Assembly: GCF_020921035.1 (NCBI RefSeq)
Contig: NC_063156.1
Span: forward strand, 27,700,283-27,764,282
Direction of reading: 5' to 3'
DNA: 64,000 nucleotides
Origin: Rhodamnia argentea
Taxonomy: Eukaryota; Streptophyta; Magnoliopsida; Myrtales; Myrtaceae
Position 1 is the stretch's first letter. Each line of letters starts with the position of its first letter. Below, piece by piece: positions 1-64,000 of this stretch. A program made the translations under genes and the position numbers. A model generated the notes under the pieces. The model was not told the origin of the DNA and did not search any database. It worked only from the letters and a program-made list of their open reading frames with translations.

Positions 1-28
1 ACCACTACTTTTCCTTGTTTCTGCAGAA

Positions 29-35
29 TATAAAT
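29..35 (+). promoter_or_regulatory. TATA box of gene A1
   Basis: TATAAAT lies 76 bp before the A1 start codon, after a CTGCAG-containing block that also precedes A2, A3, D1 and D2. Spacing fits a plant core promoter with a 5' UTR of roughly 40-45 bp. Assignment rests on motif and conservation only. Confidence 0.6.
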
Positions 36-104
36 GGTCATACAGCCTCGCCAGAAGGACACGATCCAATCACCTTAATAGGCTTCAAAGCTTCTGCTAC
101 CAAG

Positions 105-1576
105 ATGCAAACCTTGCCCAGTCCTGGTGAATCCTTCACCTGTAGCGCACCGCCTTATGACAGAGCCAAAGAAGCAAAGGAATTTGACGAGACCAAAGCC
201 GGTGTCAAAGGCCTCGTCGACTCGGGCGTGGCCAAGGTCCCTAGGCTCTTCATCCACCCACCCCAGAACCTGCGTGACCTGTCCTCCGACACGGATGGGG
301 CCGCCACCGGCCTTGAGGTCCCTGTCATCAACATGATGGGCTATGGGGATTGCCGGCGGAGGGACGTGGTCAACGATCTCCGTAGAGCATCGGAGACTTG
401 GGGTTGCTTCCGGATGATCAACCACGGAATCCCGGTCGACGCTATGGAACGCATGCTGGAAGCTGTCAAGCAGTTCCACGAGCAGCCTGAGGGAGTGAAG
501 AGAGAGTGGTACTCCAGAGACGATGCTAAGAAATTTAGGTACTACAGCAATGGAGACTTATTTTGGTCCAAAGCAGCAACTTGGAAGGACACTCTCTTCT
601 TTGAGTTGCCGTTTGAAGGGCCAGAACCAGAGGCAGTCCCTGTTCTATGCAGGTCTTAATCATGATTTATACTCTGTTCCTTCACCTAAGACCTTGACAA
701 TTTTCAAAAACTATGTACCCTGTTTCTATTTTATTTTAAAAGGGATCAAAAACAGTTTTTCGTATAACTTCGATATGGTATCAGGGCGAGATATCTCAAG
801 TTCGATTCTTCGCACCTCTTTCATCCAATTATGACTTATCCTTCTTTATACGCATCGGTTCAGTTATTGTTTCCGCTTGATGCTTTCTTTCACTCCTTTG
901 CAGAGAGCCGGTTTTTGAGTATGAAAAACACATCGAAAAATTGAAGAGAGCTCTGTCCGAGCTACTATCAGAGGCATTAGGGCTTGATTCAGGCTATCTT
1001 GGTGAAATTGAATGCATGGAATCCAAGAGAATGGTAGGCCATTACTACCCAATTTGCCCTGAGCCAGAGCTGACTATAGGCACAATCAATCATTCAGATG
1101 CCACAATTCTCACTCTTCTCCTACAAAACAACCAAGGAGGCCTCCAGGTCCGCCACCAAAACCAGTGGGTTGATGTGTCCCCTGTGCCTGGAGCAATCCT
1201 AGCCAACATGGGAGACCTCATGCAGGTACAAAGATCATTCAAATTTGTCACAGACTAGAGTAAGGTCATTTTCCAGTCGAAAGTTTGCCTGATTTGTTGA
1301 TTGCAGCTTGTTAGCAACGACAAGTTCAAGAGCGCGGAGCATCGGGTCCTCGCCAGGCGGGCTGGGCCTCGGGTCTCGGTCGCGTGCTTCGTCTTCCCCG
1401 GGGGGACACAGAAGTCGAAGCCGTATGGACCGATAGAGGAGCTTCTCGACGAGGACAATCCACCCCTGTACAGAGAGACCTCTTTCACAGAGTACTATGG
1501 GTATTACCTCTCCGGTGGCAATGGCCTGAATGGTGAACCTGTACTTCCTCATTTCAGAGTAAGCGAGCCCAAGTAG
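105..1576 (+). CDS. 2-oxoglutarate/Fe(II)-dependent dioxygenase, ACC-oxidase-homolog family (gene A1)
   Basis: Exons 105-652, 904-1225 and 1307-1576 encode 379 residues. Intron 1 is phase 2 (AG|A, Arg183), intron 2 is phase 0 after Gln, and both are GT-AG. The N-terminal DIOX_N domain covers about residues 72-180 and the 2OG-FeII_Oxy fold about 225-325. Iron ligands are H246-S-D248 and H302; the 2-oxoglutarate RxS motif is R312-V-S314. The family hydroxylates or demethylates small molecules in the cytosol using O2 and 2-oxoglutarate. The RxS motif argues against true ethylene-forming ACC oxidase, so the database name is historical. The start at 105 is chosen because B, C, D and E begin at the same aligned place; the upstream in-frame Met at 15 precedes the TATA box. 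Part of exon 2 resembles gene B more than A2/A3, which suggests gene conversion. It appears intact. The substrate is unknown. Confidence 0.92.
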
Positions 1577-1952
1577 AGAGTACAAAAATCTGTATTAGTT
1601 TTTCAAAGAAAGTGTTAAAATCTTTAAATAAGGCTACGTTGATTGCCTAAGAGAGGACCAAGAAATGGCCATGATCCTTCGGGCTGTGGAAACATTTGAA
1701 TCTCTTTCACCAAACGATAATTCCAATTAAGTTGCAAATTTAGGACGAGCTTCATCATCCCTTTCAATCTCATCCATGAGAGGTCTCCAAGTTGACATGT
1801 CGATCTCTCTAATTGGCAGAAGATTTAGGGCTGTCAAATTCGTGCCGCGACATCAGATTCGATCTGCGTCTCATGCTGTCTTGTTGCTTTCCATACTGTT
1901 TCATGTGCCGAAAAGTGAAACGAAAGAAGGAGGAAAAGTAAATGAGGAATGT

Positions 1953-2445
1953 TGTTAAAGGTATGTCTTAAGTTTAAGCCAGTAAGGAAAATTAGGAAGT
2001 TTCCTAATTTGAGTCGGATTGCTAGTTTGAACAGGTTTCTAATTTGGATCCAATTCCTTTTTATGTAAGAAATGAGTTTTCTTTGTGAAGGGTATCTAAG
2101 AGGTTACTTCTTAATGAACAACACCTTGAAGCAATCCGAGGGTGTTCAAGCTAATTAAATCTTGTGGGTAAGATATGTGAATACCATTGTGAGATTGAGA
2201 TTATTTCAAGAGGAATTGTGAAGGCCAAATATTGTGAGAGTTACTCGGTGTAATTAAAGCTGGAAAACACTTCAGAGTATTTGAGATGATCAAATGTGGT
2301 TGTAATCTTTGTTATATCGCTTAATCTATAGTATAATGTTGTGTTACCCTCCAATAGAATAGGTCCCACTAATTGAACCATGTAGATATTATTTTGTTTA
2401 TTATTGTTCGATCACTTGTTATCCACAACAAAAGGTATCAGAGCC
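1953..2445 (+). mobile_element. Truncated Copia-type element: 5' LTR plus primer-binding site
   Basis: An LTR of about 478 bp runs from TGTTAAAG to CCACAACA (1953-2430) with TGTT/AACA ends. It is followed within a few bases by GGTATCAGAGCC (2434-2445), the usual plant Copia primer-binding site matching initiator tRNA-Met. Leader-like sequence follows to roughly 2.7 kb, but no gag or pol and no second LTR is found, so this is a 5' fragment. The same fragment lies at 29400 and 61944, so it predates the tandem duplication. Confidence 0.75.
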
Positions 2446-3059
2446 AAACTTGGCTGAGTTGAAGCGAGGGAGGAAATAGGCGACAAATAAGGGTTTTTAG
2501 GTTAAAAAGGGGTAAATGTGGAATTATGAAGATTGAGTGAGGGAAAGATTGGAAATTAAAAATATACATTAACTCGGGTCTTTTGTATGCCGAGAAAGCT
2601 AGAGCAAGTAAGGAGGAGCCTTGAGTTAAAGGCCTTTAGAAGACCTTGGAAATGCTAACATTTGAGAAATGGGCTCTTCAAAAACAATTGCCAAACACTC
2701 TAGCATTCGGCTAAGGGACTTTACAGGTTCAAAGAACTTTGCAAGTGGGTTCCCAAATACAGCCTCAATAGAGCATGCTGATTGAGAGTTGCTAAATAAA
2801 CAAGCGCCGGGTGTTATTCGGCTAAGTTTGACTTGTAAGGTTGCGTGTAACATCTTGAAAGAGAAACTGCCGCCTGATTAATTAACACAAGTCGAAAATG
2901 TAGGAAAATCCATTTGCAACCACTAAAGTAAACTCAAAGAGACATATGTTTCATTTAAAGATGGGCGAAGTTGCATCGATTGCTGACACAACGTTATATT
3001 TAATATGGTCGTTAGTCAATTGAGTTTGGTTGAGATTGACTTGGATAACGAGGCACGTT
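2446..3059. other. Spacer after the truncated Copia LTR, no gene seen
   Basis: Probable untranslated leader of the truncated Copia element grading into unidentified sequence. No long reading frame resembles a known protein. Position 2783 is where unit 3 has lost about 2.2 kb. Confidence 0.4.
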
Positions 3060-3232
3060 GTTGTATTCTATTATTTTCGAGCCCGGTGGGGGACGAATTA
3101 CCTTAACTTTCGCTTGTATAAATGCTTTGCGAAATATTATCTTCAGAAGTAGGTACGCATCCAAGTTAGATTTCCGATATTTCTCATCAATTGTGCGGGT
3201 GAAAGTGGCCGTGAGTTTCAATGCCTGAAACT
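3060..3232 (+). pseudogene. Relic of the RLK 3' flank
   Basis: This stretch aligns at moderate identity with the region just downstream of the RLK stop codon (about 27170-27300). Shared features include the run around TTGCTTTGCGAAATA and the following GTAGGT...GATATTTCTC segments. It is therefore a leftover RLK 3' end behind gene A and supports an ancestral '2OGD + RLK' module. No coding sequence remains. The unit 2 copy is at 30507-30670. Confidence 0.6.
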
Positions 3233-3419
3233 AGCCCTGTTGCCTTCGAAGTTGCGATGGCATGTGCATGAAGCATGGCACCTCAGATTGAGAGAAAGAG
3301 AACTTGATCGAACTTCTTTTCCTTTTTCCGATTTCGTTTTGGTTTTGGTGGTCGCGTTAGGACAAAGACGGTGGGTTAGGAAAATGATTGGAGAAGAGAA
3401 GGATAAAAAAATGTGTATG

Positions 3420-3614
3420 GAACCACCCACCCGGGTGGTGCAGCTGGCTTGCGCACTCTTCCTCTCGCAAAAGGTCGAGTGTTCAAATCCCAGAGGTGTC
3501 GCAGAGTGACTTACCCGGTGGCACGTGTGTGGTGGCTAGCACGTGTTGCCCCCAGGGTTTACCCCCCGGCTGCCGGCCGTGCGGGGGTTCCCCGGGTCAT
3601 AAAAAAAAAAAAAA
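3420..3614 (+). mobile_element. tRNA-derived SINE, present only in unit 1
   Basis: A 195-bp insertion starts with a tRNA-like head: box A near 3433-3450 (GGTGGTGCAGCTGGCTTG) and box B near 3473-3490 (GTCGAGTGTTCAAATCCC). It ends in A14 and is flanked by the 7-bp duplication GTGTATG (3413-3419 and 3615-3621). Unit 2 has the empty site with one GTGTATG near 30857. It is not a tRNA gene, because the 3' half does not fold back and the body is GC-rich unique sequence. Confidence 0.88.
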
Positions 3615-3739
3615 GTGTATGAAAGTTGAAACTTTGTAGTTGAAAACAAAGATGAACAGAGAAGTTGAAGATGGGGATGAAGAGGAAGAAGTAGGGCTAA
3701 GTATGAGTCATTTGACCAAAGATTTGTCAACACTCAAGA

Positions 3740-3860
3740 CCTTTTTTTTTTTTTGCTCGAAATTGAAACTTCATTCATTCAACGTATCAGTTCAGAGAAA
3801 CAAGGAAAGCTAGATTCAAAACACAACAAATCCCCCAAAGATTGGGGGGGCTTTGATAGT
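3740..3860 (-). mobile_element. 5'-truncated LINE tail
   Basis: Read on the - strand this ends in a poly-A tail preceded by a segment containing GAAGTTTCAATTTCGAGC, which looks like the 3' end of a plant L1-type LINE. Only about 100 bp remain. It is also present in unit 2 (30986-31110), so it is older than the duplication. A G-rich run at its inner end is expanded in unit 2. Confidence 0.5.
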
Positions 3861-6280
3861 TAGACTTTAAGTTTACTTAAAACTGCCATGCCGCACTTAA
3901 AAACTCGATAAAAAGGCCGCGTAGGATGAATCGTCGGAATATGTCGTCGGAGATATTGAAGTGATTGATTAAGCGATATAACGAAAATTAAAACAACATT
4001 TAACGAGAGAGAATGTAATATTTATGTACAAAAGTGAAAAGAAAAAGTTGAATAGTCAAAAGGTAAAAGAAGTAGAAGACTTGGTCTTGGTCATCAAAGG
4101 AGGGGATATTCTTCGGTTTGAGAAGATAAACGTAAACACTTCCATTATTCAATTGAAGCTAAAAAAAGATATTCCCAAGTAAAAGGACAGATTCATTGAC
4201 CGTTTGGTGTAATTAACTGAAACTCGAGTTATGGCTAATTGTCATTGGCCGACTTTATCACTTAATTGAACGATTGGAGATTGATTGTAAGAACTGAATG
4301 GAAGTGATAAGTGGACGACCAACTAGTTTTTCAATCTTTTAGCATATTTAACGTGTGTAATTAGGTTATTTAGATAGATGGTCGCAGATGTTGCTATATA
4401 TGCCATTGAAATTTTAGTCTAAATAAGCTGAATCAGCTTCTCACGGACTGTGAACGCAATGGGAATCATAAAACTTTTCTCACTTTTGCTTCGAAATAAC
4501 ATTTCCTCACAATAGCTCTGTTTCATCATGACTCCCTACTTTGTAGATAGATTTTAGATGACGGATGGGTGGCCACAAAAGGGTATCTTGTGAACAGATA
4601 AAGAAATATGCAAGCACACACTTTAAGGCGATTCAAAATTGAGGTATTGAATCTCACATATAAGAGAAGATAGTATGAGAGTCAAATGGGAGCTCTTTTT
4701 TTTTTTTTTTTTGGGAATTGCAGTCTAGTAAAATTTACAATATGTTCATATCTCTGTGTCTCTTGGTGATTGCAGTCTGATAAGATATCTTATTGTCTGC
4801 TAATGCAGGAGGCTTAACAATATCCTGGACGGAGAGAGAGAGAGAGAGAGAGAGAGAGGTAGGCAAACAAGGAAAAGTGAAGAGTGAGCTGAGAGAAAAG
4901 AGTAGAAAAACGAAAGAAAGCAAGAGGGTTACGTTGCATACCCACCTCGGGGACCTCGACGAGTCGGATTCTCTCCGTTCAAAGCCCTGGTAGGTGCTCG
5001 CACCCTTCATTCATATAATTGGAGCCATCTTTTCGAACCGAGTCCTAATTTGGGATATTTATTGATTTCTAAGTCGGTGGGTTAAAACTAGGAGTTTCTA
5101 AGTTGAGAAATCATGGGGGATTGAAATTTAGGGTGCCGTGGAGCTGTAAATTTTGCAGAAGTCAATTTGGATCAATTTGGGCTTACAGTTTGCCCACAGC
5201 AAATTTTCAAAGTTACGGGCAACTGCTGAACAAGAGCGAATTTTTTTGCAGTTTTAGCCTCGGTTGTGGCCCGGTTTCGGATGTCTTTAGAGTCGACAAA
5301 GCTTGGGATGTTTAAGTATCTTGAAAAAGGCTTTTGTTGACTTTAAAATTGTTAGAATCAGAGTTTGAAGGAGAAAGTTGTAGCACAAACTAGTCCGGCG
5401 AGTAAGCTGCGCGTAGCAGACAGCAGGAAACGTCTGCTACGTCAAGCCTTTCGTTGTTATGTAGGAGTTGATTGGTCGACGAATAAATGTAATTAGTCGA
5501 GTTGTTCATTAGAGTATTTATTACTCAGTTTTTGATCCGTTTTTCCATATATTTGACAGAAATTCAGACGTGTCGGCTCAAGTAACTCTTGTAGGTTGTT
5601 GTTGGCATTATCAGGTGAATGGTACAATTTCTTCTTGTATTTGTAAACTCATATTTAAAAAATGATAAGTACTAGATAGGTTATGAGTTGAGAAAGAACA
5701 TTTTTGTTGCATAAATATGATCGAACAATTACTGCTTTTTTTTACCCAAAAAAAAAAAAATTACTGCCGTTTTATGTATTTGAAATGGAAAATCATCTTT
5801 TGGCTATATGCCCGAGCTGATTTCATCTACGTGATTTGTGAACCTTTACGAAAGGATTGGGAAAAGTTCATGACTCATGTGACTTTGAATATGGTTTGTA
5901 AAAAGTGTTCTGATATGATTGAAACACGAGAGCTATATGTGTTTTAGTTTACATGATCGACTTAGTGGTATATATATTCTAATTTATATGAAAGATTATA
6001 TGAAATGGTCTATGATCGTCTTGTGACGTGATTTTGAGCTGGCTTGCGATGTGAGAAAGACGTTGCGAGTTTAAATACTCATGTATCCTGTTCCCCATAT
6101 GTCGGCAGTTTTAAATATGAAAGATGGTACGATAATTGCAAGTCAATCGGAAACTATTTGTATTTGTTTGTCCAGAAACATTAAACCATGCACTATCTGG
6201 GAACAAGTTCCTTTCGAGCTGACTATATCGGATGGCGACTCGGCACCTCACGCCTCTCTCCCTTGTTTCTGCAGAAATAC
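3861..6280. other. Spacer between A1 and B1, no gene seen
   Basis: AT-rich spacer with the GA microsatellite, an oligo-T run (near 4690) and a small perfect hairpin with 10-bp arms (5412-5421 and 5432-5441). Short reading frames here are not conserved between units and match nothing I recognise. The last 500 bp before B is conserved in all three units, so it probably includes the B promoter. Confidence 0.6.
4832..4858. repeat. (GA)n microsatellite
   Basis: About 13 GA repeats in the spacer between A1 and B1. The same tract with the same length is at 32102-32128; unit 3 has lost it with the deletion at 62774. Confidence 0.9.
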
Positions 6281-6359
6281 ATATTGAGATGGTCAAACAG
6301 CCTCACAGAAAGGACACAATTCAATCACCTTTGCCGGCTTCAAATTTCCCCTTATAAAG

Positions 6360-7695
6360 ATGCAAGCCTCGCCCATGCATGGAGAATCCGTCACCCGTGG
6401 CGGACCGTGCTACGACAGAGCGAAAGAAGCAGAGGAATTCCACGAGACAAAAGCTGGAGTCAAAGGCCTCGTGGACTCGGGCGTGGCCAAGGTTCCTAGG
6501 CTCTTCATCCACCCGCCTGAGAACCTGCGCGACTTGTCCTCCGGCACGGATGGGGCTGTCACCGGCCTCGAGGTCCCGATCATCGACATGATGGGCTGTC
6601 GGGATTCCCGGCGGCGAGATGTCGTCGACGAGCTTCGCAGGGCATCGGAGACGTGGGGGTTCTTCCAGATAGTCAACCATGGGGTCCCAGCTGCCGTGAT
6701 GGACGGCATGCTGGAAGCTGTCACGCAGTTCCACGAGCAGCCTGAGGGAATGAAGAGAGAGTGGTACTCAAGAGATGACGCAAAGAAATTAAGGTACTAC
6801 AGCAATGGAGACTTGTTTTGGTCCCAAGCAGCAGCCTGGAGGGACACGCTCTTGTTCGATTTCTCGTGTGGAGTGCCAGACCCAGAGGAAGTCCCTCTTC
6901 TATGCAGGTCTGAATCAGGATTGATAATACCATTCCTTCACCTAGAAGAGAACGTTCCTGATGCTTTCTTTCTTTCACTCCTCTGCAGAGAGCCAGTTTT
7001 CAAATACGAAGAACACATCGAAAAGTTGAAGAGATCTCTGTCTGAACTACTATCGGACGCATTGGGGCTTGACTCAGGCTATCTTCGTGATCTTGAATGC
7101 ATGGAATCCAAGAGAATCGTAGGCCATTACTACCCAATTTGCCCTGAGCCAGAGCTGACTATGGGCACAATCAATCACTCAGATGCCACAATTCTCACTC
7201 TTCTCCTTCAAAACAACCATGGAGGCCTCCAGGTCCGCCACCAAAACCAGTGGGTTGATGTGTCCCCTGTGCCTGGAGCAATCCTAGCCAACATTGGAGA
7301 CTTCATGCAGGTACCAGGATCGTTCACATTTGTCATTTGTTACACATGTTTCCGGTTTCGATTGAGGTCGAGAAATCTTCAGGTCAAGGAGTGGTTTTCC
7401 TTTTTGCCTGATTTGTCGATTGCAGCTTGTTAGCAACGACAAGTTCAAGAGCGTGGAGCACCGGGTCCTCGCCAGGAGGGCCGGGCCCCGGGTCTCGGTC
7501 GCGTGCTTCCTCTTCCCGGGAGGGATACAGAAGTCGAAGCCATATGGGCCGATAAAGGAGCTTCTCGATGAGAACCATCCACCCTTGTACAGGCAGACCT
7601 CTTTCGCAGACTATCTTGGGTATTTCCACTCGAGGAATGGCCTCAACGGTGAATCTTTACTTCCTCATTTTAGAGTAAGTTCTAAAAATATTTAA
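6360..7695 (+). CDS. 2-oxoglutarate/Fe(II)-dependent dioxygenase, ACC-oxidase-homolog family (gene B1)
   Basis: Exons 6360-6907, 6989-7310 and 7426-7695 encode 379 residues. H246/D248/H302 and R312/S314 are all present. Intron 1 is only 81 bp, a multiple of three with no in-frame stop, so retaining it would simply add 27 residues; the GT...CTGCAG borders and alignment with A and D favour splicing. The C-terminus differs from A and D: about 75 bp inserted near the end moves the stop, giving SSKNI in place of SEPK. The TATAAAT seen before A and D is disrupted here (AATACATATT), so expression may differ. It lies about 700 bp upstream of C1 on the same strand. It is probably a functional oxygenase of unknown substrate. 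Confidence 0.92.
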
Positions 7696-8410
7696 GCTTT
7701 AAATCACGCTTTTATCTAATAGTTTAAACTGTAGTCTCACAAAATTTTATATAAGTGAGTTCAAGTAGAGAGTGCAAATTGTGCGAAAAGCTTTAATAAA
7801 GATGTCGGATTTCACATTAATATGATTGGTTTATCTTTTCAACAAAGTTAGGACTGTCAATCAATATCGTGGCATCATTCTATTGTTCGTGTCACGCTGT
7901 CTTACTGCTTTTCAAACTATTTATTGTGATGAAAAGTCTTTCTTGGTACAAAAGAAAAGGTCAAAACTTATTAAGTTATGTCAGTTTTGAGTTCATCGCG
8001 TAGATTTGAGCTTCTCTTGGTATTATCTACTTAAACAGAGTTCGCTTGCGATACGAACATTATTTATCATACCAACTTTGAAGATCGGTTTCAGTATGCT
8101 CTGGCACTAACTCAATTTTTTTTGGCACTAACTCAATTGACAAATGCCTAAATTAAGGGTTTCATTTGACCAATTCAAGCCATTCCCATGTGAAATGGAA
8201 TCTGGCTCAGATTAGGGCGGTGGTTCCAGACCTACCCCCAACCTCTTGTCTCCTGGGGATTCCTAGGCATTTTGTTCCCTTGACCAAATTTGTGCAATGG
8301 CTTCTCTCTAGCTAATCATCTTCATATCATTCCCATGGTCACAGCCTCACATTGAGCAGGGCTCAAATTCATTCGATCTTAACTAAGACTTCAAACTTTG
8401 TCACTGCAAG
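7696..8410. other. B1-C1 spacer
   Basis: Contains the remains of the original B C-terminal codons (about 7755-7770), the B 3' UTR and the C promoter. No TATA box is obvious before C. A short direct repeat of GGCACTAACTCAATT (about 8103-8140) sits in the middle. No gene seen. Confidence 0.6.
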
Positions 8411-10070
8411 ATGATGCAAACCTCGCCTAGTCCGGGAGAATTCATCACTCACCGCGACACAGTTTACAACAGAGCGAAAGAATTGCGGGAGTTCGACGAG
8501 ACCAAGGCCGGAGTCAAAGGCCTCGTGGACTCTGGCGTGGCCAAGATCCCTAGGATCTTCATGCACCCGCCCGAGAACTTGCACGGTTTGTCATCCAACA
8601 CGAAGAGGGCCTGCCTCCGGGGCCCGATCATCGATCCGAGAGACTGTCGGGATTCTCGACGTCGAGATATCACCGATGGTATTCGTGAAGCATCAGAGGC
8701 GTGGGGGTTCTTCCAGATAATCAATCACGGGATTCCACTTGACGTGATGGACAGCATGTTGGAGGGTGTGAGGAAGTTCCATGAGCAAGAAGTGGAAGTG
8801 AAGAAAGAGCTGTACTCTAGAGATGGTATGAAGAGAGTGAGGTACTTTAGCAATGGAGACTTGTTCCAGTCAAAAGCAGCAGCCTGGAGAGATAGCGTCC
8901 TATTTGATTTCCAGGATGGTGTCCTAGACCCCGAGGCTGTTCCTCCTATTTGCAGGTATATACCTATGACTTGTGAGAGTTAATAATTGAAGTTGCTACG
9001 TGAAAAATCAGAACAACTTGGTTTTGGAGTATCCTCTAACAACCTTAGTAACAACAGTTGAGGGAGAGCCAAGGTGTTCCCCAAGTCTGAACGTGCATTC
9101 TTCCAAAAAAACAAAAGAACATAAACAATGCTACAAACCTGGATACCGAAAACTCACACACGGTGCTTTCATTTGCTCGTTTGTAGAGAGGCAGTTTTCG
9201 AGTACGAGAAGCATATGGTCAGGCTGAAGACATCTTTATCCGAACTGTTCTCGGAGGCATTGGGACTTCGTTCCTATTATCTCAGTGGCATTGAGTGTAT
9301 GAAATCGGAGACACTAACATGCCATTACTACCCAGCTTGTCCTGAACCAGAATTGACTCTCGGTACAATTAATCACTCGGACTTATCGTGTCTGACTCTT
9401 CTCCTTCAAGACCACCACGGTGGCCTCCAAGTCCTCCATGAAAACCACTGGGTTGATGTGGTTCCCGTGAAGGGAGCAATTCTAGCCAACATTGGAGACT
9501 TCATGCAGGTAAAGAAAGTTCCACCTTTTATCTGACCTTATGCTCCCTGGCATACATAACATTGGAGTCGGTTTTGAATGCCCTTCATTACATCAACCAT
9601 ATAATGAGTCTAGACAATGTTTTCTGAGCAACCAATCGAATGTAGAACGAACTTTCCACGATACCCTGAGCACTTGAGAAGAATCATAAGTGAAGTAACA
9701 GAGCAATGTTGCGGCATGAGAGCACATTGCATTGTATGCCTAGCTCTTTGCCTTCATCATCTTTTGAAGTCATAACTCCCTTTCTGGTCTAATACAATGG
9801 TTGCAGCTTGTTACCAATGACAAGTTCAAAAGCGTGGAGCACCGAGTACTCGCCGGGCGGGTTGGACCCAGGGTTTCGGTCGCATGCTTTCTCTCCCCAG
9901 GCTGGACGCAAAAAACCAAACTCTTTGGGCCAATAAAGGAGCTTCTCTCTGAAAACAATCCACCTATATACAAAGAAACCTCTCCTTTGGAGTACGTCAC
10001 CTATTATATATCCCATGGCCTGAGCGGCAATTCAGCACTTCCTCATTTCAGGATGAGCGACTCCAAATAG
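8411..10070 (+). CDS. 2-oxoglutarate/Fe(II)-dependent dioxygenase, ACC-oxidase-homolog family (gene C1)
   Basis: Exons 8411-8955, 9187-9508 and 9807-10070 encode 376 residues. Iron ligands are H245/D247/H301 and the RxS motif is R311/S313. It is the most diverged intact member: [10 protein letters not shown] for [24 protein letters not shown] in exon 2, and a shorter C-terminal part. It groups with the broken E copies, while A, B and D form a second group. Two Met codons start the frame; the second aligns with the Met of A, B and D, so either may be used. No broken motif is seen. Substrate specificity probably differs from A, B and D, but this is inference. Confidence 0.92.
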
Positions 10071-10253
10071 GGCGGAGTTGTGGAAAATCCTGAATGAGTG
10101 TGTCTTGACTGGTTATATCATTTATCTGAGTTTGTGGCAGGACTTTGCACCTGTCTGTTTCGATATGTGCAATAAAATCTTACTTATCTCAAACAAACCA
10201 GTGCCAAGGTTGATTCTTCTGATGCATTGTGTAATGTGACTAGATGCCGTAAT

Positions 10254-10833
10254 CTATGTTACACGGACACGCCCCCAAAGAAAAATTTCCCGTGTCGGAC
10301 ACGTGTCGGACACCGACACGTGTCCGACACGTCCGGACTCTCTTCAACATGCTTTCCAATATCAACTCACAAAAATTTTATACTTCAAAATCATTTTCTG
10401 CCCACGTTTCCATGAAACTTTGGCCCATGGACATGCTAGGTATTCCTCAAGGCCCATCAAGCCAAGATGGGTTGCTTTATGCAACTGAGCCCCCATTTAT
10501 AAGAGGTTTTCCCTTCCTTTCTCTATTACATTGCCAATGTGGGACATGGAATCAGACATATGCACAGGCAAACACAGTTCCTGGTCATGAAACTAAAAGA
10601 ACAAAGTGTCCCCACGTGTGCACAGGCAAACATATTTCATTCTAGGGCTTTTTTTAATTATCTATTTATTTGTGACTTCAGCAAAATAATAATTTATCAC
10701 ACATCTATAAAAATATATATTTAATATATAACGTGTCCCAGCGTGTTGGAATTTTCTATTTTTTGATAAACAACGTGTCGGCGTGTCGTGTCGTGTCGTG
10801 TCGTGTCCCGTGTCCCGTGTCGGTGTAACATAG
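10254..10833. mobile_element. hAT-like MITE with GACAC-type subterminal repeats, unit 1 only
   Basis: A 580-bp element flanked by the perfect 8-bp duplication GCCGTAAT (10246-10253 and 10834-10841), with terminal inverted repeats CTATGTTACACGGACACG and CGTGTCGGTGTAACATAG. Inside both ends are dense GACACG/CGTGTC repeats in both orientations. There is no transposase. Unit 2 has a single GCCGTAAT at 37558-37565, a clean empty site. The 8-bp duplication fits hAT-type transposition. Confidence 0.87.
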
Positions 10834-11284
10834 GCCGTAATAAGCGATGGAACCATAGAATGAAAACCTATTGAAGATTTGCTCAATCGTTCTGCAACTT
10901 TATCATAACAAATCGACCGTCAAGAATTTACACCATATTTTTGGCTAGCATTGACAAGCATGTCGGCTTCAACTTGTCCGAATCAAAGAACAACTGACTC
11001 GATTAGACAAATTCTAGAAATTCAAGAACTCGTTAGATATGATGACGGCACTGGAAAAAGAGGGCAAAACCAAGAACCGAATATGTGCTGTTTCCTTGAA
11101 TACTTTCACCCATTCACTTTTCATCGGAAAACAGTTATGGTCAAAAGAAATGACCATATGTTCACCTGAGGTGTTACCCATGATTTTCTGATACAAAGTG
11201 CGAAGTGGCCATTGTCCTTCTTACCACCCGCAGAATCTATTTCCGCCGAGAGGGGGTCAGGAAAATAACGACAGCATTACCAAG

Positions 11285-13266: not shown

Positions 13267-13318
13267 GAGCCACAATTGTAGGGAACAAGAGGTCAAAAGG
13301 CAAAACTTGAGGAGTTGC

Positions 13319-13940: not shown

Positions 13941-13980
<40 letters not shown>

Positions 13981-17530: not shown

Positions 17531-17534
17531 ACAG

Positions 17535-17790: not shown

Positions 17791-17817
17791 AAGTAATGGT
17801 AAGCTTTGCTCTGGACA

Positions 17818-52702: not shown

Positions 52703-52709
52703 CTCCCCC

Positions 52710-54965: not shown

Positions 54966-55612
54966 TCAACGTATCTTGCACTCTTGCAAATACTTCGTGA
55001 ATTCATTAGAAGTATATTCTCCCCCGTTATCAGCACGAAGGCAAAGAATCTTCTTGCCCACTTCACTTTCTATCTTCTCCTTAAACTCCTTAAATTTGAT
55101 AAATGCCTCGGATTTATCTTTCATAAAATCAACCCAAACATACCTGGAGAAGTCGTCGATAAATGTGATCATATACTTTGATCCACCAATAGACGATTGC
55201 TTCACCGGACCAAACACATCCGAGTGAATGAGCTCGAGAGGCGTACGAGCTTTGAATGATGATTCCTCGTAAGGAAGCCGATGTGCCTTTCCATACCGAC
55301 ATTCGACACAAACCACATCTTCTTGAACTTCCGACTGGGGGAGGCCCTTCAGCATATTCTTCAGCATTATCACTTTCAACTTGTGATAACTTACATGCCC
55401 AAGCCGCGCATGCCACAAATCAGGTGTATCATTCCTCCGGGTTTTGTTTACGTATGCCGTTTGAGCAGACATCACGTAAACGGACTCCGGTCGACGTCCC
55501 TCCATGATTGGTCGACTAGTGGGCTTCACACTTCGGTACACCTTAACATCTCGTGGACCGAATATAACATAATTACCCGAGTCCGTGAGCTGGGACACAG
55601 ACAATAAATTTT
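54966..55612 (-). pseudogene. Copia pol, part 1: GAG-pre-integrase and integrase core
   Basis: Contains the HHCC zinc-binding segment (LWHARLGH ... [10 protein letters not shown]) and integrase core residues ([26 protein letters not shown]). It is out of frame with gag upstream because of one extra A in a run of A (55609-55614), and ends at TGA (54966-54968) where an Arg codon is expected in [13 protein letters not shown]. Both are single-base changes, so the element was recently intact. Confidence 0.9.
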
Positions 55613-56874
55613 TTCTTCATCCCCGGCACGTGATACACATTTTTCAATTCAACCTGCTGTGAATTGAGTCGAGGAGTTATCACCGTCTCACCAATATGGG
55701 AAATTGGCAACCTCGAGCCATCCGCAGTAATCACTACACGTCCACCGGTATAATCCAGCGTATTCGACGCCTTGCCTTGATCTCCGGTCATGTGATTCGA
55801 ACACCCCGAATCAACAATCCAATCAACATCATAATTAATCGACTTATCACTTACAGTGATTAAAGCCATCGAATGGTTCGACTCGACAATGGACGAGGCA
55901 GCGAGCTCGTCTTGCACCTCCGTTGCGATAGATGCATGAAAATCCCATTCCACATTGTCATCGAAATCACTCCTCTTCGATGATGCTGCGACATTTACTT
56001 CAACTCTTTTTGCTCGACAATCTCTAGCGAAATGACCTTCTCTGCCACGGACATAACATCGTCCACTACGCCTTTTGTCATTCCCATAACGATTCCGCCA
56101 AGCTCCCCCTGATCGAAGACTCGTCTCTCCCGGACGTTTTTTCCATTCTCCACGAGCTGGCTGCTTTTGCCTTTCGACATGACTTTTTCCCGGCTTGTCA
56201 TCTCTATTGTCAGCATCGATTCTCCTCCGGCCCTTGAACCCTCTCTTATCACCGAAGAGGGCACTCTCATCTCCCTTCATCGAAACCTTAGACATTTGAT
56301 TATCTAAAGTTTCTTGGTTGGCCAAAATATTCTCCAGTTCGATCAACGTTGGTTGTGTTGCCCATCCACGAGTAGCCGTAACAATACCATTATACTCCGG
56401 CTTTAACCCATGAATAATAATCATTCTCATTCTCGTTTCAGAGATGGCATTATTCGGATCTAGCTTCGAAATTTCGTCACAAATAGACTTAACCTTGGAG
56501 AAATATTGACTCACCGTCATATTTTGTTGTGACATCGACAGCAGCTCGTTCTCCAACCTTTGCAACTTGGCATCATTCGACCTTGCGAACAACGTTGCCA
56601 AGTTATCCCATGCCTCCTTGGGAGTCTGCGCACTCTTTATATGCTGCAACAAGTCATCTTCAACAGTCACGGCAAGAGCGTAAAGAGCCTTACCCGCTTT
56701 GATGTTCCATCTCCTCGTATCACCATCGTTTGTGGGTGCCATGGTGTTGCTGCCGCCAACAATATCCCACAAATCTTGACCCCGCAAATAAAACTGCATG
56801 CGGGTACTCCAATTATTATAATTGGAATTGTTCAGCTTCTCAATACCATTCGTCGAACTTGATACGTCTGCCAT
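55605..56874 (-). CDS. Copia gag and protease
   Basis: The Gag start is taken at 56874 ([14 protein letters not shown]); an upstream in-frame Met at 56907 is less likely. It has a UBN2-type Gag ([15 protein letters not shown] ... [20 protein letters not shown]), a zinc knuckle near 56020-56060, and a retropepsin site [11 protein letters not shown]. The knuckle reads [14 protein letters not shown]: the second Cys of CX2CX4HX4C is Arg, which should impair RNA binding. The frame is lost at the A-run 55609-55614. Confidence 0.88.
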
Positions 56875-57066
56875 CCGATTGGAGAAAAGTGTCCGGCTTG
56901 GTCCCAATCAATTGATCACAGTCCCCGATCGTACTCCGTGAGAACTTCGACGTACTCCGGTCCTCGACCGCTTGCACACGAACAATGGTCGCTAACCACC
57001 ATCTTCACGAACCACACTCCGAAAGACTTGATTCACGGTCCCCGGTAACCGCGCTCCGATACCAAA

Positions 57067-57491
57067 TGTTGAATTTTCGAGTTGCGAAGCACGTCTCGAT
57101 CCTTAAGATGATCGAAGACTATCGAAGGTGAAAGGTTCTCTTCACACGAGATAAGTGTTCAAGGGAGGAGATGGATGGACTCTATAATTTTCTATATTCA
57201 CCTTACTTTCACCTTATTTGAAACGATTACAGGACTTGCCTTTATATAGGCGAAAAGACATGACTCCCGACATACCCTAGATACATGAAAAGACCCGTCC
57301 AAATACAAAGCAATAATTACACATTGGAATACTAAAAGACTCTCGAGACACACAACAAATGATGACTCTTAAATAACTACAAAACAATAATGACACTAAA
57401 CACGCGCGTCGATAGACGTCCATCGAAAGCCGAAAAATCTATCGAAGAGTCACGCTATTGAATTCTTGAGTAGGCGGTGATATCTTCAATA
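57067..57491 (-). repeat. Copia 5' LTR
   Basis: Right copy on the + strand. Same length (425 bp) as its partner; differences noted at a G/A in the ACGGGACTTG segment, CCTTAG/CCCTAG, CCCGATA/CCAAATA (two), AAAACC/AAAGCC and CTCGAG/CTTGAG. Confidence 0.93.
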
Positions 57492-59429
57492 CCCTCTGCC
57501 CTTATCGGTCAATCTTGGCAACTGTTGCATTGTCGGCCATAGGGATTCTTATGTTCACACTCTATCGTCGGAGGAAACAGAAACTTGGCTTTTCGGCTGA
57601 GGTTTCTGATGGCCATCTAAGCACTGATCAGCCTAAGAGTGCTTGTAAGGAAAATGGCTCTCCTTTAGCTAGCCTGGAATATTCAAATGGATGGGATCCG
57701 CTTGCTGATGCTCAGATCGTTAATGAGTTTTCTGAAGAAGCTTTGCAGAGCTTCAGATTCAATCTGGAAGAGGTGGAATCTGCCACTCAGTATTTCTCGG
57801 AGGTGAATGTGTTGGGTAAGAGTGACTTCTCTACCCCATACAGAGGAATACTGAGAGACGGCTCTGTAGTCGCCATCAAATGCATCAACACGACTGGCTG
57901 CAAGGCTGATGAATCTGAGTTCTTGAAGGGTTTGAATATGTTGACCTCGCTGAGACATGAAAATCTGGTGAGGCTGTGAGGATTCTGCTGCTCAAGGGGC
58001 CGTGGGGAGTGCTTCCAGATTTATGATTATGTTCCGAATGGGACTCTTCTAAGCTTTTTGCATTTGGAGGGGGATATTGGCACCCCTGAGGGGTCCACTA
58101 GAGTTTCGATTGTGAAGGGAATCGCTAAAGGCCAGTGGTGTCTGATGATTTCCTTCTTGTTTCATCTGAATGGCTATCTAGTGAATTTCAATCCTTGTTC
58201 CATAATTTCTCCAAAACTCGAGTTTGGCTCCGAGTTCTTTATTTATCCTTGTGCTACATGTTTGATAACTCTGGTTGCTGCTGGCTATTGCCTTCTAAGT
58301 TGTCCTCCCTGCATAAAGCTTTTGTTGGATTTTGGAACTTGAATTGAGTTTTGGATTTTATCTGATGCTAGAGAGCTACCTCTAACCTTGGTAGGTTATT
58401 GTTGGTGGGTGCTTGAAGACACATTTTAAGCACTGCTTAAAAAGAATGCTTGTAATTCCAAATCTCCAAATTGAGTAAAGTGTAATGGTTTTACGTGCGG
58501 CATGAAATTCGAACATTCAAAAAAGTCACTTGTTTACACTTCCAAAGGGACATTTATGAGCCCAATAAGTGTTTTAAATGCACTCGTCAGCATTTTTAAA
58601 TTCAAGCAAGAACCTTCAAAACAATAACTCCAGTTCTAATTTCTTCTGATGCATCATTGACAGTGCTTTGGATCTCTAGTGAGCAGTAACCACCTGAGGG
58701 GCTATGAAATTCATAATAGCATGGTCTAGTCTTTATGGAGGAACAAATTTAGGTGGTCCAGGACTTCCATCATTTGAGGAACACTGCCATTGTTGAATTT
58801 GCTGCATTATGAATTTTGCCTGGTCACTGCTCTGTCATGTACTAATATGGGTAATGCTTGTGGTGCTCAAATAGCATACTGTGGCGTTTAATTTAAATGT
58901 TTTTCTTTCTCTGATTTTGTTGATTTTCGAATGATTTTACGAAACAGGTATTGCCTATTTGCATGCTCATAAACCGAACAAGGCCCCTCTCCTTCACCAA
59001 AACATCTCGGCGGAAAATGTGCTCATAGACCAGCGATACAATCCGCTGCTCTATGACTCCGGTCTCCACAGGCTCCTCACGAATGACGTTGTGTTCTCGT
59101 TGCTCAAAGCTAGCGCTGCCATGGGCTACCTAGCGCCCGAGCACACGTCCACGGGCCAGTTCACGGAGAAGAGTGATGTCTACGTGTTTGGAATGATCGT
59201 GTTCCAGATTTTGTCGGGGAAGCAGAAAGTCGATCACGCCGTGCGTCTGGCTGCTGAATCGCGCAGATTCCAGGAATTCATCGACGGGAATATCCATGGA
59301 AGGTTCTTCGAGTACGAGGCGGCTAAACTCGCGAGGATCGCCTTGCTTTGCACCAACGAGTCTCCTTATGACAGGCCATCCATGGAGGCCGTGATTCACG
59401 AGCTGAGTAATTGTAGCAGCTGTCTCTGA

Positions 59430-59990
59430 TTGTGAGGCCTTACTGGATAAATGTTCCGAGAGCCATTTCAAAAGTTGGTCCGAAGAGGCTACCTGCGCGG
59501 TACCACAAATGTTGTAACCTACCGGCTTCAGCATTTTTTGGTTTTGGTCCTTTGCCTTACGGCTGTGCTTTCTTTGAGCCCGGTATGGGCATGTATAATT
59601 GCTTTGCGACATAGTTTCTTTAGGAGTAGGTTCATTTCGACAGTAGATTTTTGATATTTCTCGTCACGTGCTGCATTTGTGTGGGCGAAAATCTCTGCCG
59701 ACTTTGGATGTTTTGTGGCATGTGAGAAATGCTCGAGAGAAAAAATCTCCATCGACATGTCAGCAATTTTAATTGCTAGTTAATCGAAGGGATATGTTTT
59801 TCGTTGCTGATACATGGGTCAAAGCACGTGAGAAATGCTCGAGAGAAAAAATAACACTCCCCTTATTTTATGATCTAGGCCATGGTTGCTCTCTAATCCG
59901 GACGCTTGATCACCATCCGGTTGATAAGAGTCCCTTTCGATTGCACGTGATCGGACGCGGACCGGGCAACTACTACTTCTCCATGTTTCT
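59430..59990. other. RLK2 3' flank and A3 promoter region
   Basis: Same as 27028-27470 but with about 119 bp (59865-59983) that unit 2 lacks. The final bases match the window start, so unit 1 probably has this longer A promoter too. Confidence 0.7.
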
Positions 59991-59996
59991 GCAGAA

Positions 59997-60003
59997 TATA
60001 AAT
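59997..60003 (+). promoter_or_regulatory. TATA box of gene A3
   Basis: TATAAAT 76 bp before the A3 start codon, with the full-length upstream region intact. Confidence 0.6.
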
Positions 60004-60072
60004 GGTCATACAGCCTCACCAGAAGGGCACAATCCAATCACCTTAATAGGCTTCAAAGCTTCTGCTACCAAG

Positions 60073-61553
60073 ATGCAAACCTTGCCCAGTCCTGGTGAAT
60101 CCTTCACCTGTAGTGGACCGTGCTATGACAGAGCCAAAGAAGCAAAGGAATTTGAAGAGACCAAAGCTGGCGTCAAAGGCCTCGTCGACTCGGGCGTGGC
60201 CAAGGTCCCTAGGCTCTTCATCCACCCACCCCAGAACCTGCGTGACCTGTCCTCCGACACGGATGGGGCTGCCACTGGCCTCGAGGTCCCTGTCATCGAC
60301 ATGATGGGCTGTGAGGATTGCCGGCGGAAGGATGTGGTCAACGACCTCCGTAGAGCATTGGAGACTTGGGGTTTCTTCCGGATAATCAACCATGGAATCC
60401 CGGTTGACGCTATGGAACGCATGCTGGAAACTGTCAAGCAGTTCCACGAGCAGCCTGAGGGAGTGAAGAGAGAGTGGTACTCCAGAGACGATGCTAAGAA
60501 ATTTAGGTACTACAGCAATGGAGACTTATTTTGGTCCAAAGCAGCAACTTGGAAGGACACTCTCTTCTTTGATTTCCCCTCTGGAGGGCTAGAACCAGAG
60601 GCAGTCCCTGTTCTATGCAGGTCTTAATCATGATTTATACTCTGTTCCTTCACCTAAGACCTCGACAATTTTCGAAAACTATGTACCCTGCTTCTATTTT
60701 CTTTTAAAAGGGATCGAAAACAATTTTTTGTATAACTTCAATATGGTTACGGGGCGAGATATCTCAAGTTCAATTCTTCGCAATTCTTCGCACCTCTTTC
60801 ACCCAATTATAACTTTCTCTTCTTTATATACATAGGTTCAATTATTCTTTCCGCATGATGTTTTCTTTCACTCCTTCGTAGAGAGCCGGTTTTTGAGTAC
60901 GAAAAGCACATTGAAAAGTTGAAGAGATCTCTATCTGAACTACTATCAGAAGCATTAGGGCTTGATTCAGGCTATCTTGGTGAAATTGAATGCATGGAAT
61001 CCAAGACAATGGTAGGCCATTACTACCCAATTTGCCCTGAGCCAGAGCTGACTCTGGGCACAATCAATCACTCAGATGCCGCATTTCTCACCCTTCTCCT
61101 ACAAAACCACCATGGAGGCCTCCAATTCCGCCACAAAGACCAGTGGGTTGATGTGTCCCCTGTGCCTGGAGCAATCCTTGCCAACATAGGAGACCTCATG
61201 CAGGTACAAAGATCATTCAAATTTGTCACAGACAGAGTAAAGGTCATCTTCCAGTCGAAGTTTGCCTGATTTGTTGATTGCAGCTTGTTAGCAACGACAA
61301 GTTCAAGAGTGCGGAGCACCGGGTCCTCGCCAGGCAGGCTGGGCCTCGGGTCTCGGTCGCGTGCTTCCTCTTCCCCAGGGGGACACGGAAGTCGAAGCCA
61401 TATGGACCGATAGAGGAGCTTCTCGACGAGGACAATCCACCCCTGTACAGAGAGACCTCTTTCCCAGAGTACTTTGGGTATTACCTCTCCAGTGGCAATG
61501 GCATGAATGGTGAAGCGGTGCTTCCTCATTTCAGAGTAAGCGAGCCCAAGTAG
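60073..61553 (+). CDS. 2-oxoglutarate/Fe(II)-dependent dioxygenase, ACC-oxidase-homolog family (gene A3)
   Basis: Exons 60073-60620, 60882-61203 and 61284-61553 encode 379 residues with H246/D248/H302 and R312/S314. Intron 1 ends in TAG where A1 and A2 use CAG. The frame is open for 100 codons upstream of the Met, but the TATA box lies in that stretch, so it is leader rather than protein. A3 keeps the family-typical IDMMG and GFFRIINHG where A1 and A2 have INMMG and GCF, and its LPSPGESF N-terminus is shared with A1. It differs from A1 more than A1 does from A2. No defect is seen. Confidence 0.92.
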
Positions 61554-61943
61554 AGAGTACGAAAATCTGTATTGAGTTTTTCAAAGAAAGTGTTAAAATA
61601 TTGAAAGAAGGCTACGTTGATTGCCTAAGAGTGGAACGAGAAATGGCCATGATCCTTCAGGCTGTGGAAACATTTTAATCTCTTTCACCAAACGATGATA
61701 ATACTTACTACTTCCAATTAAGTTGCAAATTTAGGACAAGCTTCATCATCTCTTTCAATCTCATCCATGAGAGGTCTCCAAGTTGACATGTCGATCTCTC
61801 TAATTGGTAGAAGATTTAGGACTGTCAAATTCGTGCCGCGACATCAGATTCTATCTGCGTCTCATGCTGTCTTGTTGCTTTCCATACTGTTTCATGTGAC
61901 GAAAAGTGAAACGAAAGAAGGAGGAAAAGTAAATGAGGAATGT

Positions 61944-62436
61944 TGTTAAAGGTATGTCTTAAGTTTAAGCCAGTAAGGAAAATTAGGAAGTTTCCTAATT
62001 TGAGTCGGATTGCTAGTTTGAACAGGTTTCTAATTTGGATCCAATTCCTTTTTATATAAGAAATGAGTTTTCTTTGTGAAGGGTATGTAGGAGGTTACTT
62101 CTTAATGAACAACACCTTGAAGCAATCCGAGAGTGTTCAAGCTAATTAAATCTTGTGGGTAAGATATGTGAATACCATTGTGAGATTGAGATTATTTCAA
62201 GAGGAATTGTGAAGGCCAAATACTGTGAGAGTTACTCGGTGTAATTGAAGCTGGAAAACACTTCAGAGTATTTGAGGTGATCATATGTGGTTGTAATCTT
62301 TGTTATATCGCTTAATCTATAGTATAATGTTGTGTTGCCCTCCAACGGAATAGGTCTCACTAATTGAACCATGTAGATATTATTTTGTTTATTATTGTTC
62401 GATCACTTGTTATCCACAACAAAAGGTATCTGAGCC
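61944..62436 (+). mobile_element. Truncated Copia LTR plus PBS (unit 3)
   Basis: LTR 61944-62421 and primer-binding site GGTATCTGAGCC (62425-62436; one change from units 1 and 2). Leader-like sequence follows until the deletion junction at 62773. Confidence 0.75.
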
Positions 62437-62771
62437 AAACTTGGCCGAGTTGAAGCGAGGGAGGAGATAGGCGACATATAAGGGTTTTTAGGTTAAAAAG
62501 GGGTAAATGTGGAATTATGAAGATTGAGTGAGGGCACGATTGGAAATTAAAAATATGCATTAACTCGGGTCTTTTGTATGCCGAGAAAGCTAGAGCAAGT
62601 AAGGAGGAGCCTTGAGTTAAAGGCCTTTAGAAGACCTTGGAAATGCTAACATTTGAGAAATGGGCTCTTCAAAAACAATTGCCAAACACTCTAGCATTCG
62701 GCTAAGGGACTTTACAGGCTCAAAGAACTTTGCAAGTAGGTTCCCAAATACAGCCTCAATAGAGCATGCTG

Positions 62772-62775
62772 ATCT
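62772..62775. other. Deletion junction in unit 3
   Basis: Sequence matching unit 1 up to about 2783 joins sequence matching from about 5015 (unit 2: 30229 to 32285). A shared AT at the junction suggests microhomology-mediated end joining. Lost are the RLK relic, LINE tail and GA microsatellite. Confidence 0.85.
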
Positions 62776-62938
62776 AATTGGAGACATCTTTTCGAACCGA
62801 GTCCTAATTTGGGATATTTATTGATTTCTAAGTTGGTGGGTTAAAACTAGGAGTTTCTAAGCTAAGAAATCATGGGGGATTGAAATTTAGGGTGCCGTGG
62901 AGCTATAAATTTTGCAGAAGTCAATTTGGATCGATTTG

Positions 62939-62970
62939 GGCTTACGTTTTTTTTTTTTTTTTTGGCTTAC
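62939..62970 (-). mobile_element. Oligo-T insertion with 7-bp target duplication (unit 3)
   Basis: Insert G then T17 (62946-62963) between two GGCTTAC copies. Units 1 and 2 have a single GGCTTAC and no insert (near 5190 and 32450). Confidence 0.7.
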
Positions 62971-62975
62971 AGTTT

Positions 62976-64000
62976 GCCCACAGCAAATTTTCAAAGTTAC
63001 GGGCAACCGCTGAACAGTAGCGAATTTTTTTGCGGTTTAAGCCACGGTTGTGGCCGGGTTTCGGATGTCTTTAGAGTCGACAAAGCTTAGGATGTTTAAG
63101 TATCTTGAAAATGGCTTTTGTTGACTTTAGAATTGTTAGAATCAGAGTTTGATGGAGAAAGTTGTGGCGTAGACTAGTCCGACGAGTAAGTTGCGCGTAG
63201 CGCATGGAAGGGAACATTTGCTACGTTGAGCCTTTCGTTGTTATGTAGAAGTCGATTGGTCGATGAATAAATGTAATTAGTCGAGTTGCTCATTAGAGTA
63301 GTTATTACTCAGTTTTTGATCCGTTCTTCCGTATATTTGATAAAAATTCGGATGTGTCGGCTCGAGTAACTCTTGTAGGTTGGTGTTGGCCTTATTAGGT
63401 AAGTGATACAATTTCTTCTTGTATTTGTATACTCATACTTAAAAAATGATAAGTACTAGATAGGTCATGAGCTGAGAAATAGCATTTTTGTTGCATGAAT
63501 ATGATCGAACAATTACTGGCTTTTTTTTTAATTAAAAAAAAAACTATTACCACCTCTATGTGATTTGTGAACCTTTATGAAAGGATTGAGAAAAGTTCAT
63601 GGCTCATGACTTGTGAATGTGGTTTGTAAAAAGTGTTATGATATGATTGAAACACGAGAGCTATATGTGTTTTGGTTTACATAATCAACTTAGTGGTATA
63701 TATATTCTAATTTATATGAAAGATTATATGAAATGGTATGTGGCCATCTTGTGACGTGATTCTGAGTTGGCTTGCGATGTGAAAAAGATGTTGCAAGTTT
63801 AAATACTCGTGTATCATCTTCCCCATATGTTGGCAGTTTTAAATATGAAAGATGGTACGATAATTGCAAATCAATCGGAAGCTATTTGTATTCGTTTGAC
63901 CAGAAACATTAGTCCATGCACCATCTGGTAACAAGTTCCTTTCGAGCGGACTGTATCGGATGGCGACTCGGCACCTCCCACCTCTCCATTGTTTCTGCAG
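62976..64000. other. Spacer leading to B3 (B3 itself outside the window)
   Basis: Matches 5200-6273 and 32465-33542. The last bases (CCATTGTTTCTGCAG) are the leader block that lies about 90 bp before the B1 and B2 start codons, so a B3 gene is expected immediately after the window. No gene inside this stretch. Confidence 0.7.

Follow-up and report, generated by a model that had tools for sequence, protein, structure and literature searches.

A direct tandem array of four-oxygenase blocks in Rhodamnia argentea, probably built by stepwise block duplication and carrying some already broken copies

Tandem duplication is a usual source of 2-oxoglutarate/Fe(II) dioxygenase (2OGD) genes in plants and accounts for 39 of 153 such genes in tea, according to the excerpted text of PMC10051519. 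In the opium poppy T6ODM cluster, tandem 2OGD copies carried their flanking transposons along as they were copied, and loss of the cluster accompanies changed chemistry (PMC7055283, excerpt). The locus described here is likewise an array of plant 2OGD copies, but T6ODM belongs to DOXC52 (PMC10051519, excerpt), whereas the present block combines four diverged 2OGDs with two relics. The clade probably represented here is DOXC31, that of D4H, GSL-OH and BX6 (excerpts of PMC10051519 and PMC9301305), with the difference that copying at this locus proceeds as a 27-kb block. The Arabidopsis halleri HMA4 triplicate is a comparable set of tandem copies with ectopic gene conversion among them, a candidate process here too, although HMA4 is one transporter gene selected for dose (PMC3749932, excerpt). 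Yeast CUP1 arrays show that nonhomologous joins can create new tandem units, as may have happened in this array, but their repeats surround one gene of known function, copper binding (PMC4232551, excerpt).

We consider it very likely (probability about 0.87) that the locus is a direct tandem array with a unit of about 27.4 kb, made up of four diverged 2OGDs, a dead E exon and the 3' half of an LRR-kinase gene, likewise dead, and that it arose by stepwise block duplication.

Layout and divergence of the units

The window, meaning the whole 64,000-nt stretch of DNA that was analysed, is occupied by two direct units of about 27.4 kb with the order A-B-C-D-E-K and by the beginning of a third:

1..27464, + strand: unit 1 (A1-B1-C1-D1-E1-K1), aligned to unit 2; left end cut by the window
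27449..59868, + strand: unit 2 (A2-B2-C2-D2-E2-K2), containing a 5.2-kb copia insertion
59869..64000, + strand: first part of unit 3 (leader of A, A3, region upstream of B3), recognised by identity to units 1 and 2
62772..64000, + strand: region upstream of B3, a self-match; the B3 gene itself lies beyond the window

In self-BLAST, units 1 and 2 matched directly and collinearly over long stretches, offset by 26.7-27.4 kb across most of the unit; positions 10-3419 matched 27457-30865 at 97.4% and 14977-21931 matched 41705-48667 at 95.4%. Over 26,506 aligned positions the two units are 96.74% identical (K2P 0.033), a likeness far beyond chance. With adjacent direct copies and the gene order kept, the locus is a tandem segmental duplication array. 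The first-pass annotation had recognised this array, which these matches show to be real, and its order of A, B, C, D, E stump and kinase piece agrees with the gene models; its count of at least 2.1 units was also correct, since all that can be seen of unit 3 is its A gene and the DNA upstream of B. The 27.4-kb step that it gave holds with the copia element set aside. As the DNA stands, the step is 32.4 kb from K1 to K2 and 32.5 kb from A2 to A3, because the 5.2-kb copia element lies inside K2. For the region upstream of B the step is 30.5 kb, unit 3 being about 2.2 kb shorter in that part.

Unit 3 is further from units 1 and 2 than those two are from each other. Its A region is 94.9% identical to unit 1 and 94.7% to unit 2 (K2P 0.0535 and 0.0549), and the region upstream of B is 91.1% and 91.3% identical (K2P 0.0959 and 0.0930). 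The simplest reading of this greater distance is that blocks were added at least twice.

Between units 1 and 2, noncoding divergence is low in a B-C block (12/1618, compared with 498/17,365 elsewhere), the limits of which were set after viewing the divergence profile, with 13,500-16,500 left out of the comparison. The interval left out is highly divergent between units (288/2975) and has a CpG observed/expected ratio of 1.12, the value for the window as a whole being 0.82; 240 of the 288 changes are transitions, 110 of these at CG. Given this CpG richness and transition excess, faster mutation of methylated DNA may be the simpler reading of the interval, as opposed to an older segment.

Oxygenase genes, relics and insertions

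Genes A-D are three-exon 2OGD genes, with A, B and D close relatives of one another and C and E forming another pair. Seven of the nine complete gene models look intact:

105..1576, + strand: A1, intact 2OGD with GT-AG introns and no internal stop; exons 105-652, 904-1225 and 1307-1576; 379 aa
6360..7695, + strand: B1, intact 2OGD; exons 6360-6907, 6989-7310 and 7426-7695; 379 aa
8414..10070, + strand: C1, intact 2OGD; exons 8414-8955, 9187-9508 and 9807-10070; 375 aa
18713..20794, + strand: D1, intact 2OGD; exons 18713-19260, 20090-20411 and 20525-20794; 379 aa
35726..37382, + strand: C2, intact 2OGD by gene model
45453..47532, + strand: D2, intact 2OGD by gene model; 99.4% nucleotide identity to D1
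60073..61553, + strand: A3, intact 2OGD by gene model; 379 aa

Pfam scanning of the oxygenases covered B1 and D1, the other copies being assigned by alignment to these two. DIOX_N and 2OG-FeII_Oxy were found in the B1 frame (E 1.5e-19 and 2.1e-19) and in D1, where DIOX_N lies in exon 1 and 2OG-FeII_Oxy in exons 2 and 3. All seven intact copies (A1, B1, C1, D1, C2, D2 and A3) have HxD, the distal His and RxS; we take HxD...H to be the iron triad of these oxygenases and the RxS Arg to bind 2OG. HxD and His/RxS align with those of feruloyl-CoA ortho-hydroxylase 4xae (B1 exon 3, D1 exon 2). By their domains and the HxD...H/RxS residues, A-D are classed as plant DOXC-class 2-oxoglutarate/Fe(II) dioxygenases. 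Between gene types, dN/dS is 0.17-0.36 (NG86) or 0.20-0.40 (YN00). Between units the NG86 values, from few changes, are uneven (A1-A2 0.38, B1-B2 0.64, C1-C2 0.40, D1-D2 0.11), which counts against inferring present constraint on the newest copies.

The remaining oxygenase copies are damaged, and E is a single broken first exon in both units:

27552..29023, + strand: A2, pseudogene truncated by a nonsense codon (TGA at 28637, codon 279)
33633..34968, + strand: B2, full-length frame; Arg312 of RxS changed to Trp (34762)
24053..24591, + strand: E1, a lone first exon, frameshifted because 4 bp present in C are missing at one position
50788..51777, + strand: E2, a lone first exon with a TAG stop in frame at 50860 and an insertion of about 452 bp (51177-51628)

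It had been proposed that each unit adds four complete 2OGD genes. Unit 2 contradicts this through the premature stop of A2 and the lost Arg312 of B2, which rule it out as a general rule; with these two copies damaged, an added block does not amount to four additional working genes. What survives of the earlier description is a block-amplified direct 2OGD tandem array with a kinase relic and older transposon-like DNA.

Downstream of E lies the relic K:

24810..27027 (start approximate), + strand: K1, remains of an LRR receptor-like kinase gene (3' part); in-frame TGA at 25575-25577, another frame break near 25,040
51976..59429, + strand: K2, the same relic; TGA at 57977-57979, split by the copia element

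K1 and K2 have the same in-frame nonsense codon in common, the simplest reading of which is that K was already dead before the unit was copied. This shared codon, the altered kinase motifs of K1 (HRD to HQN, DFG to DSG) and a Pfam search that found no LRR domain of K in the frames scanned together rule out that the unit encodes an active receptor kinase.

Three transposon-like insertions are each present in just one of units 1 and 2, and these unit-specific insertions came after the duplication:

52278..57491, - strand: copia retrotransposon, unit 2 only; LTRs 52278-52702 and 57067-57491, target-site duplication CCCTC
10254..10833, strand not assigned: 580-bp hAT-like element present in unit 1 but not unit 2, with inverted ends CTATGTTACAC and an 8-bp target-site duplication GCCGTAAT
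3420..3614, + strand: SINE-like element with an A-tail, unit 1 only; GTGTATG flanks it on both sides

The copia element has the make-up of Ty1/copia, with gag, integrase and RT (RVT_2) domains in interrupted frames. Its LTRs differ by 6 mismatches in 425-426 sites (1.4%), below the unit divergence; the LTR was aligned as 426 bp and is 425 bp when the final base is read as target duplication.

The unit join and competing explanations

The unit edges had been described as not visible, yet a switch in flank affinity together with a leader gap probably marks one of them:

27449..27464, + strand: probable duplication join K1|A2

The left flank of the join resembles the sequence before A3 at 93 of 95 positions. 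Of 114 diagnostic sites to its right, 90 group A2 with A1, 21 group it with A3 and 3 with neither; A2 and A3 agree at 9 of the 12 sites in a single tract of exon 2 and at 12 of the 102 others. A2 is also without about 120 bp (121 alignment columns) of the A leader that A3 has, and short similarity occurs at the join, as CCTTGTTT in A1 and A2 and as CCTTATTT in A3, left of the missing piece.

We propose that the array grew by tandem duplication in steps and that its copies then diverged and decayed, perhaps with some gene conversion. K would have been dead when the block was copied, judging by the common nonsense codon, and the last block duplication would have linked DNA preceding the A3 leader with the leader of A1, either through short sequence similarity or by unequal exchange. 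Later gene conversion may have evened out differences in the B-C stretch and also introduced a B-like tract into A1. A variant of this stepwise scheme, to which we give somewhat less than an even chance, invokes homologous unequal crossover between A leaders and treats the deletion of about 120 bp in the A2 leader as separate and later. The A genes would offer long homologous substrates (94-97%), and repeats are known to undergo unequal crossover as a standard process (PMC4232551, excerpt), but it would then be a coincidence that the affinity switch lies only a few bases from the deletion.

Could the assembly instead have placed two haplotypes of one unit in tandem? Divergence of 3.3% is possible between haplotypes of a very heterozygous plant, which covers the value between these units, and haplotypes also show insertions of the unit-specific kind seen here. 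However, A is present in three copies of two divergence classes (A1-A2 97.4%; A3 94.1-94.2% to A1 and A2), which in a diploid needs more than two haplotypes; moreover, the K1|A2 join has its own deletion and the decay of A2 and B2 fits paralogues. We regard such an artefact as very improbable and retain stepwise block duplication.

The candidate conversion in A1 was examined by its site pattern:

1103..1157, + strand: stretch of A1 exon 2 that resembles B, a candidate gene conversion with B as donor

Six of its seven clustered sites match B. The clustering of sites is significant (1/5000), whereas permutation of the match labels is not, 1450 of 5000 shuffles being equally good. That the array is a mosaic generator, still growing by block duplication and by short A/B/D conversion tracts beside HxD (A1 1103-1157), seems unlikely; if true, it would swap residues on the active-site side and so yield new oxygenase variants.

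Enzyme clade and biological meaning

The intact copies would encode soluble oxygenases of specialised metabolism, most likely of the DOXC31 (D4H / GSL-OH / BX6) kind. The closest solved structure is feruloyl-CoA ortho-hydroxylase 1 (4xae; E 3e-36), an enzyme of the F6H kind, which a table in PMC10051519 (excerpt) assigns to DOXC30. A literature search by sequence motif for clade placement gave no match. Lineage-specific chemistry from the array would be a guess based on the enzyme family. It is highly improbable that the window holds a metabolic gene cluster in which different enzymes serve one pathway. Although 2OGDs are known in such clusters (GAME11 and BX6; PMC4191161, excerpt), all enzyme genes seen in the window are paralogues of one family. 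Pfam scanning of 30 of the 78 listed open frames found no second enzyme family, the remaining matches among them being the kinase relic and the copia element, and a multi-enzyme cluster is unsupported on that basis. Among the frames scanned, 19 that were intergenic or antisense had no Pfam domain, and an Rfam scan gave nothing at gathering score.

The locus reflects a fairly recent block duplication of an ordinary kind, and some of its additional gene copies are already broken. It changes no concept, tandem 2OGD arrays and copy-number effects being already known. What it offers is a readable order of events, from an older and then a newer block to transposons and decay, along with a candidate join. 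It also carries a warning that 2OGD copy counts overstate working enzymes. Block copy number would set the dose of intact oxygenases and, if confirmed in the living plant, the array would be a clean example of oxygenase dose rising by blocks while single copies die.

Layout and divergence of the tandem array

Self-BLAST of the window returned long collinear direct repeats with the gene order A-B-C-D-E-K, where A to D are three-exon 2-oxoglutarate/Fe(II) dioxygenase (2OGD) genes, E is a lone broken 2OGD first exon, K is the 3' part of a decayed LRR receptor-like kinase gene, and digits denote units:

1-27464, unit 1
27449-59868, unit 2
52278-57491, copia element within unit 2
59869-64000, start of unit 3 (A3, then sequence upstream of B3)

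In the same comparison, unit 2 follows unit 1 at an offset of 27.4 kb for A, 26.7 kb for D and E, and 32.4 kb for K; A3 is offset from A2 by 32.5 kb, and the sequences upstream of B in units 2 and 3 are offset by 30.5 kb. Units 1 and 2 were 96.74% identical over 26,506 aligned positions (K2P 0.033; 635 transitions and 228 transversions), with K2P values of 0.014 for coding and 0.037 for noncoding sequence when E and K were taken as noncoding. The surplus in unit 2 is the 5.2-kb copia element, which has gag, integrase and RT domains, 425-bp LTRs (426 bp by the aligner) differing at 6 sites, and a CCCTC target duplication; unit 1 lacks the element and has an empty site. Present in unit 1 and missing from unit 2 are a 580-bp element with inverted ends and an 8-bp target duplication, and a second element that is A-tailed and flanked by a 7-bp repeat; by these hallmarks we take them to be hAT-like and SINE-like, respectively. 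The hAT-like and copia sites lie beyond the visible part of unit 3, and their presence or absence refers to units 1 and 2. Also absent from unit 3 is ~2.2 kb that both other units carry between A and B (2783-5012 in unit 1, against 62773), reflecting an insertion or a deletion.

Unit 3 was the outgroup: its K2P to unit 1 was 0.0535 in the A region and 0.0959 upstream of B, and to unit 2 it was 0.0549 and 0.0930, which most simply would imply that blocks were added at least twice. Two haplotypes set in tandem during assembly could account for two copies, but not for three copies in two divergence classes, nor for the special join between K1 and A2, and we regard such an artefact as very improbable. 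The tandem array is real and well preserved, and the type of event is already known.

The K1/A2 join

The first-pass annotation held that the unit edges were not visible. One edge is probably visible at the K1/A2 join (~27,449-27,464), given an A3-like left flank, a mostly A1-like right side and a gap in the leader, the sequence ahead of the A gene. Before A2, 93 of 95 aligned bases were identical to the sequence ahead of A3. To the right, among 114 sites differing between A1 and A3, A2 matched A1 at 90, A3 at 21 and neither at 3; the first five diagnostic sites, from 27458, were A1-like, and nine of the 21 A3-like sites fell inside a single tract in exon 2 that holds 12 diagnostic sites. A2 lacks ~120 bp of leader found in A3 (121 alignment columns), and the first bases of A1 resemble A3. 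K2P between K1 and K2 was 0.018, below the distance of unit 3 to the other units, putting the exchange on the right-hand side of K. Short similarity was found at the join (CCTTGTTT versus CCTTATTT), and the origin of the join would be compatible both with direct microhomology joining and with unequal exchange plus a nearby deletion.

State of the genes and signals of possible conversion

Gene models built with A1 as guide gave nine complete three-exon genes, all with GT-AG introns, of which seven (A1, B1, C1, D1, C2, D2, A3) had no internal stop and kept the catalytic motifs. The RxS arginine and HxD residues function in 2-oxoglutarate and iron binding. A2 has a TGA at codon 279 (28637) and B2 an Arg312 to Trp change (34762); Arg312 aligned to the RxS arginine, and the HxD motif to the HxD, of feruloyl-CoA ortho-hydroxylase (4xae). 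Intron 1 of B is just 81 bp (6908-6988 in B1, 34181-34261 in B2), divisible by three and open in frame, so that a read-through protein with 27 added residues is possible.

E is a single first exon damaged in units 1 and 2, and tblastn with A1 exons 2 and 3 found neither exon downstream. E2 carries a ~450-bp insertion (51177-51628), in which clear inverted ends or a target duplication were not seen; it sits exactly at the point of a 4-bp shortfall in E1 relative to C. In K, HQN replaces HRD and DSG replaces DFG; an LRR domain was not found in the frames scanned. Because K1 and K2 share these changes and an in-frame TGA, K most simply would have been dead before block copying.

A, B and D were close (NG86 dS 0.28-0.37 between types) and C distant from them (0.88-1.24); E joined C in an exon 1 tree using its first 388 bases. 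Between types, dN/dS was 0.17-0.36 (NG86) or 0.20-0.40 (YN00), so purifying selection acted on the enzymes during divergence of the types. For the unit 1/unit 2 pairs, where changes are few, NG86 dN/dS came to 0.38 for A, 0.64 for B, 0.40 for C and 0.11 for D.

Positions 13500-16500 and their unit 2 counterpart differed by 9.7%, more than three times other noncoding sequence. Transitions made up 240 of the 288 changes and 110 lay at CG, a pattern that looks like heavily methylated DNA with faster mutation. Either side lie direct repeats (11243-11452 and 17503-17725; ~81% alike, 6.26 kb apart), perhaps remnants of an old element. Inverted arms lie at 13008-13153 and 13372-13517 in unit 1, and unit 2 has a long imperfect palindrome (78%) at 39742-40198.

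Between B and C (6900-10250), 12 of 1618 noncoding positions differed versus 498 of 17,365 elsewhere, leaving out the hypermutable 13,500-16,500 (Fisher p 7e-9, which is too small since the limits were picked after viewing the divergence profile). This suggests that the stretch was homogenised later. A1 has 14 private changes in its coding sequence, and seven of them fell in a 60-bp stretch of exon 2, a clustering equalled in 1 of 5000 simulations. B matched six of these seven versus 1 of 13 private changes in A2; label shuffling of the tract matches alone was not significant (1450/5000). The low B-C divergence and the A1 tract are suggestive of gene conversion, though not proof.

Enzyme family and predicted role

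Domain content assigns the enzymes to the plant 2OGD family. DOXC31 is our best guess for the clade, based on an N-terminal pattern that we take to be typical of it, and on the nearest relative with a solved structure, the DOXC30 enzyme F6'H1; a literature search for such pattern strings did not find them. DOXC31 includes D4H, GSL-OH and BX6 (PMC10051519) and the tanshinone enzyme SmTIIAS (PMC9301305). Precedents for the array are opium poppy T6ODM, with copies flanked by transposons and copy loss accompanying altered alkaloids (PMC7055283), ectopic conversion at A. halleri HMA4 (PMC3749932), and yeast CUP1 arrays formed via nonhomologous joins (PMC4232551). The enzymes are predicted, as their likely role, to hydroxylate, demethylate or desaturate a specialised metabolite, and the number of blocks would set the dose.
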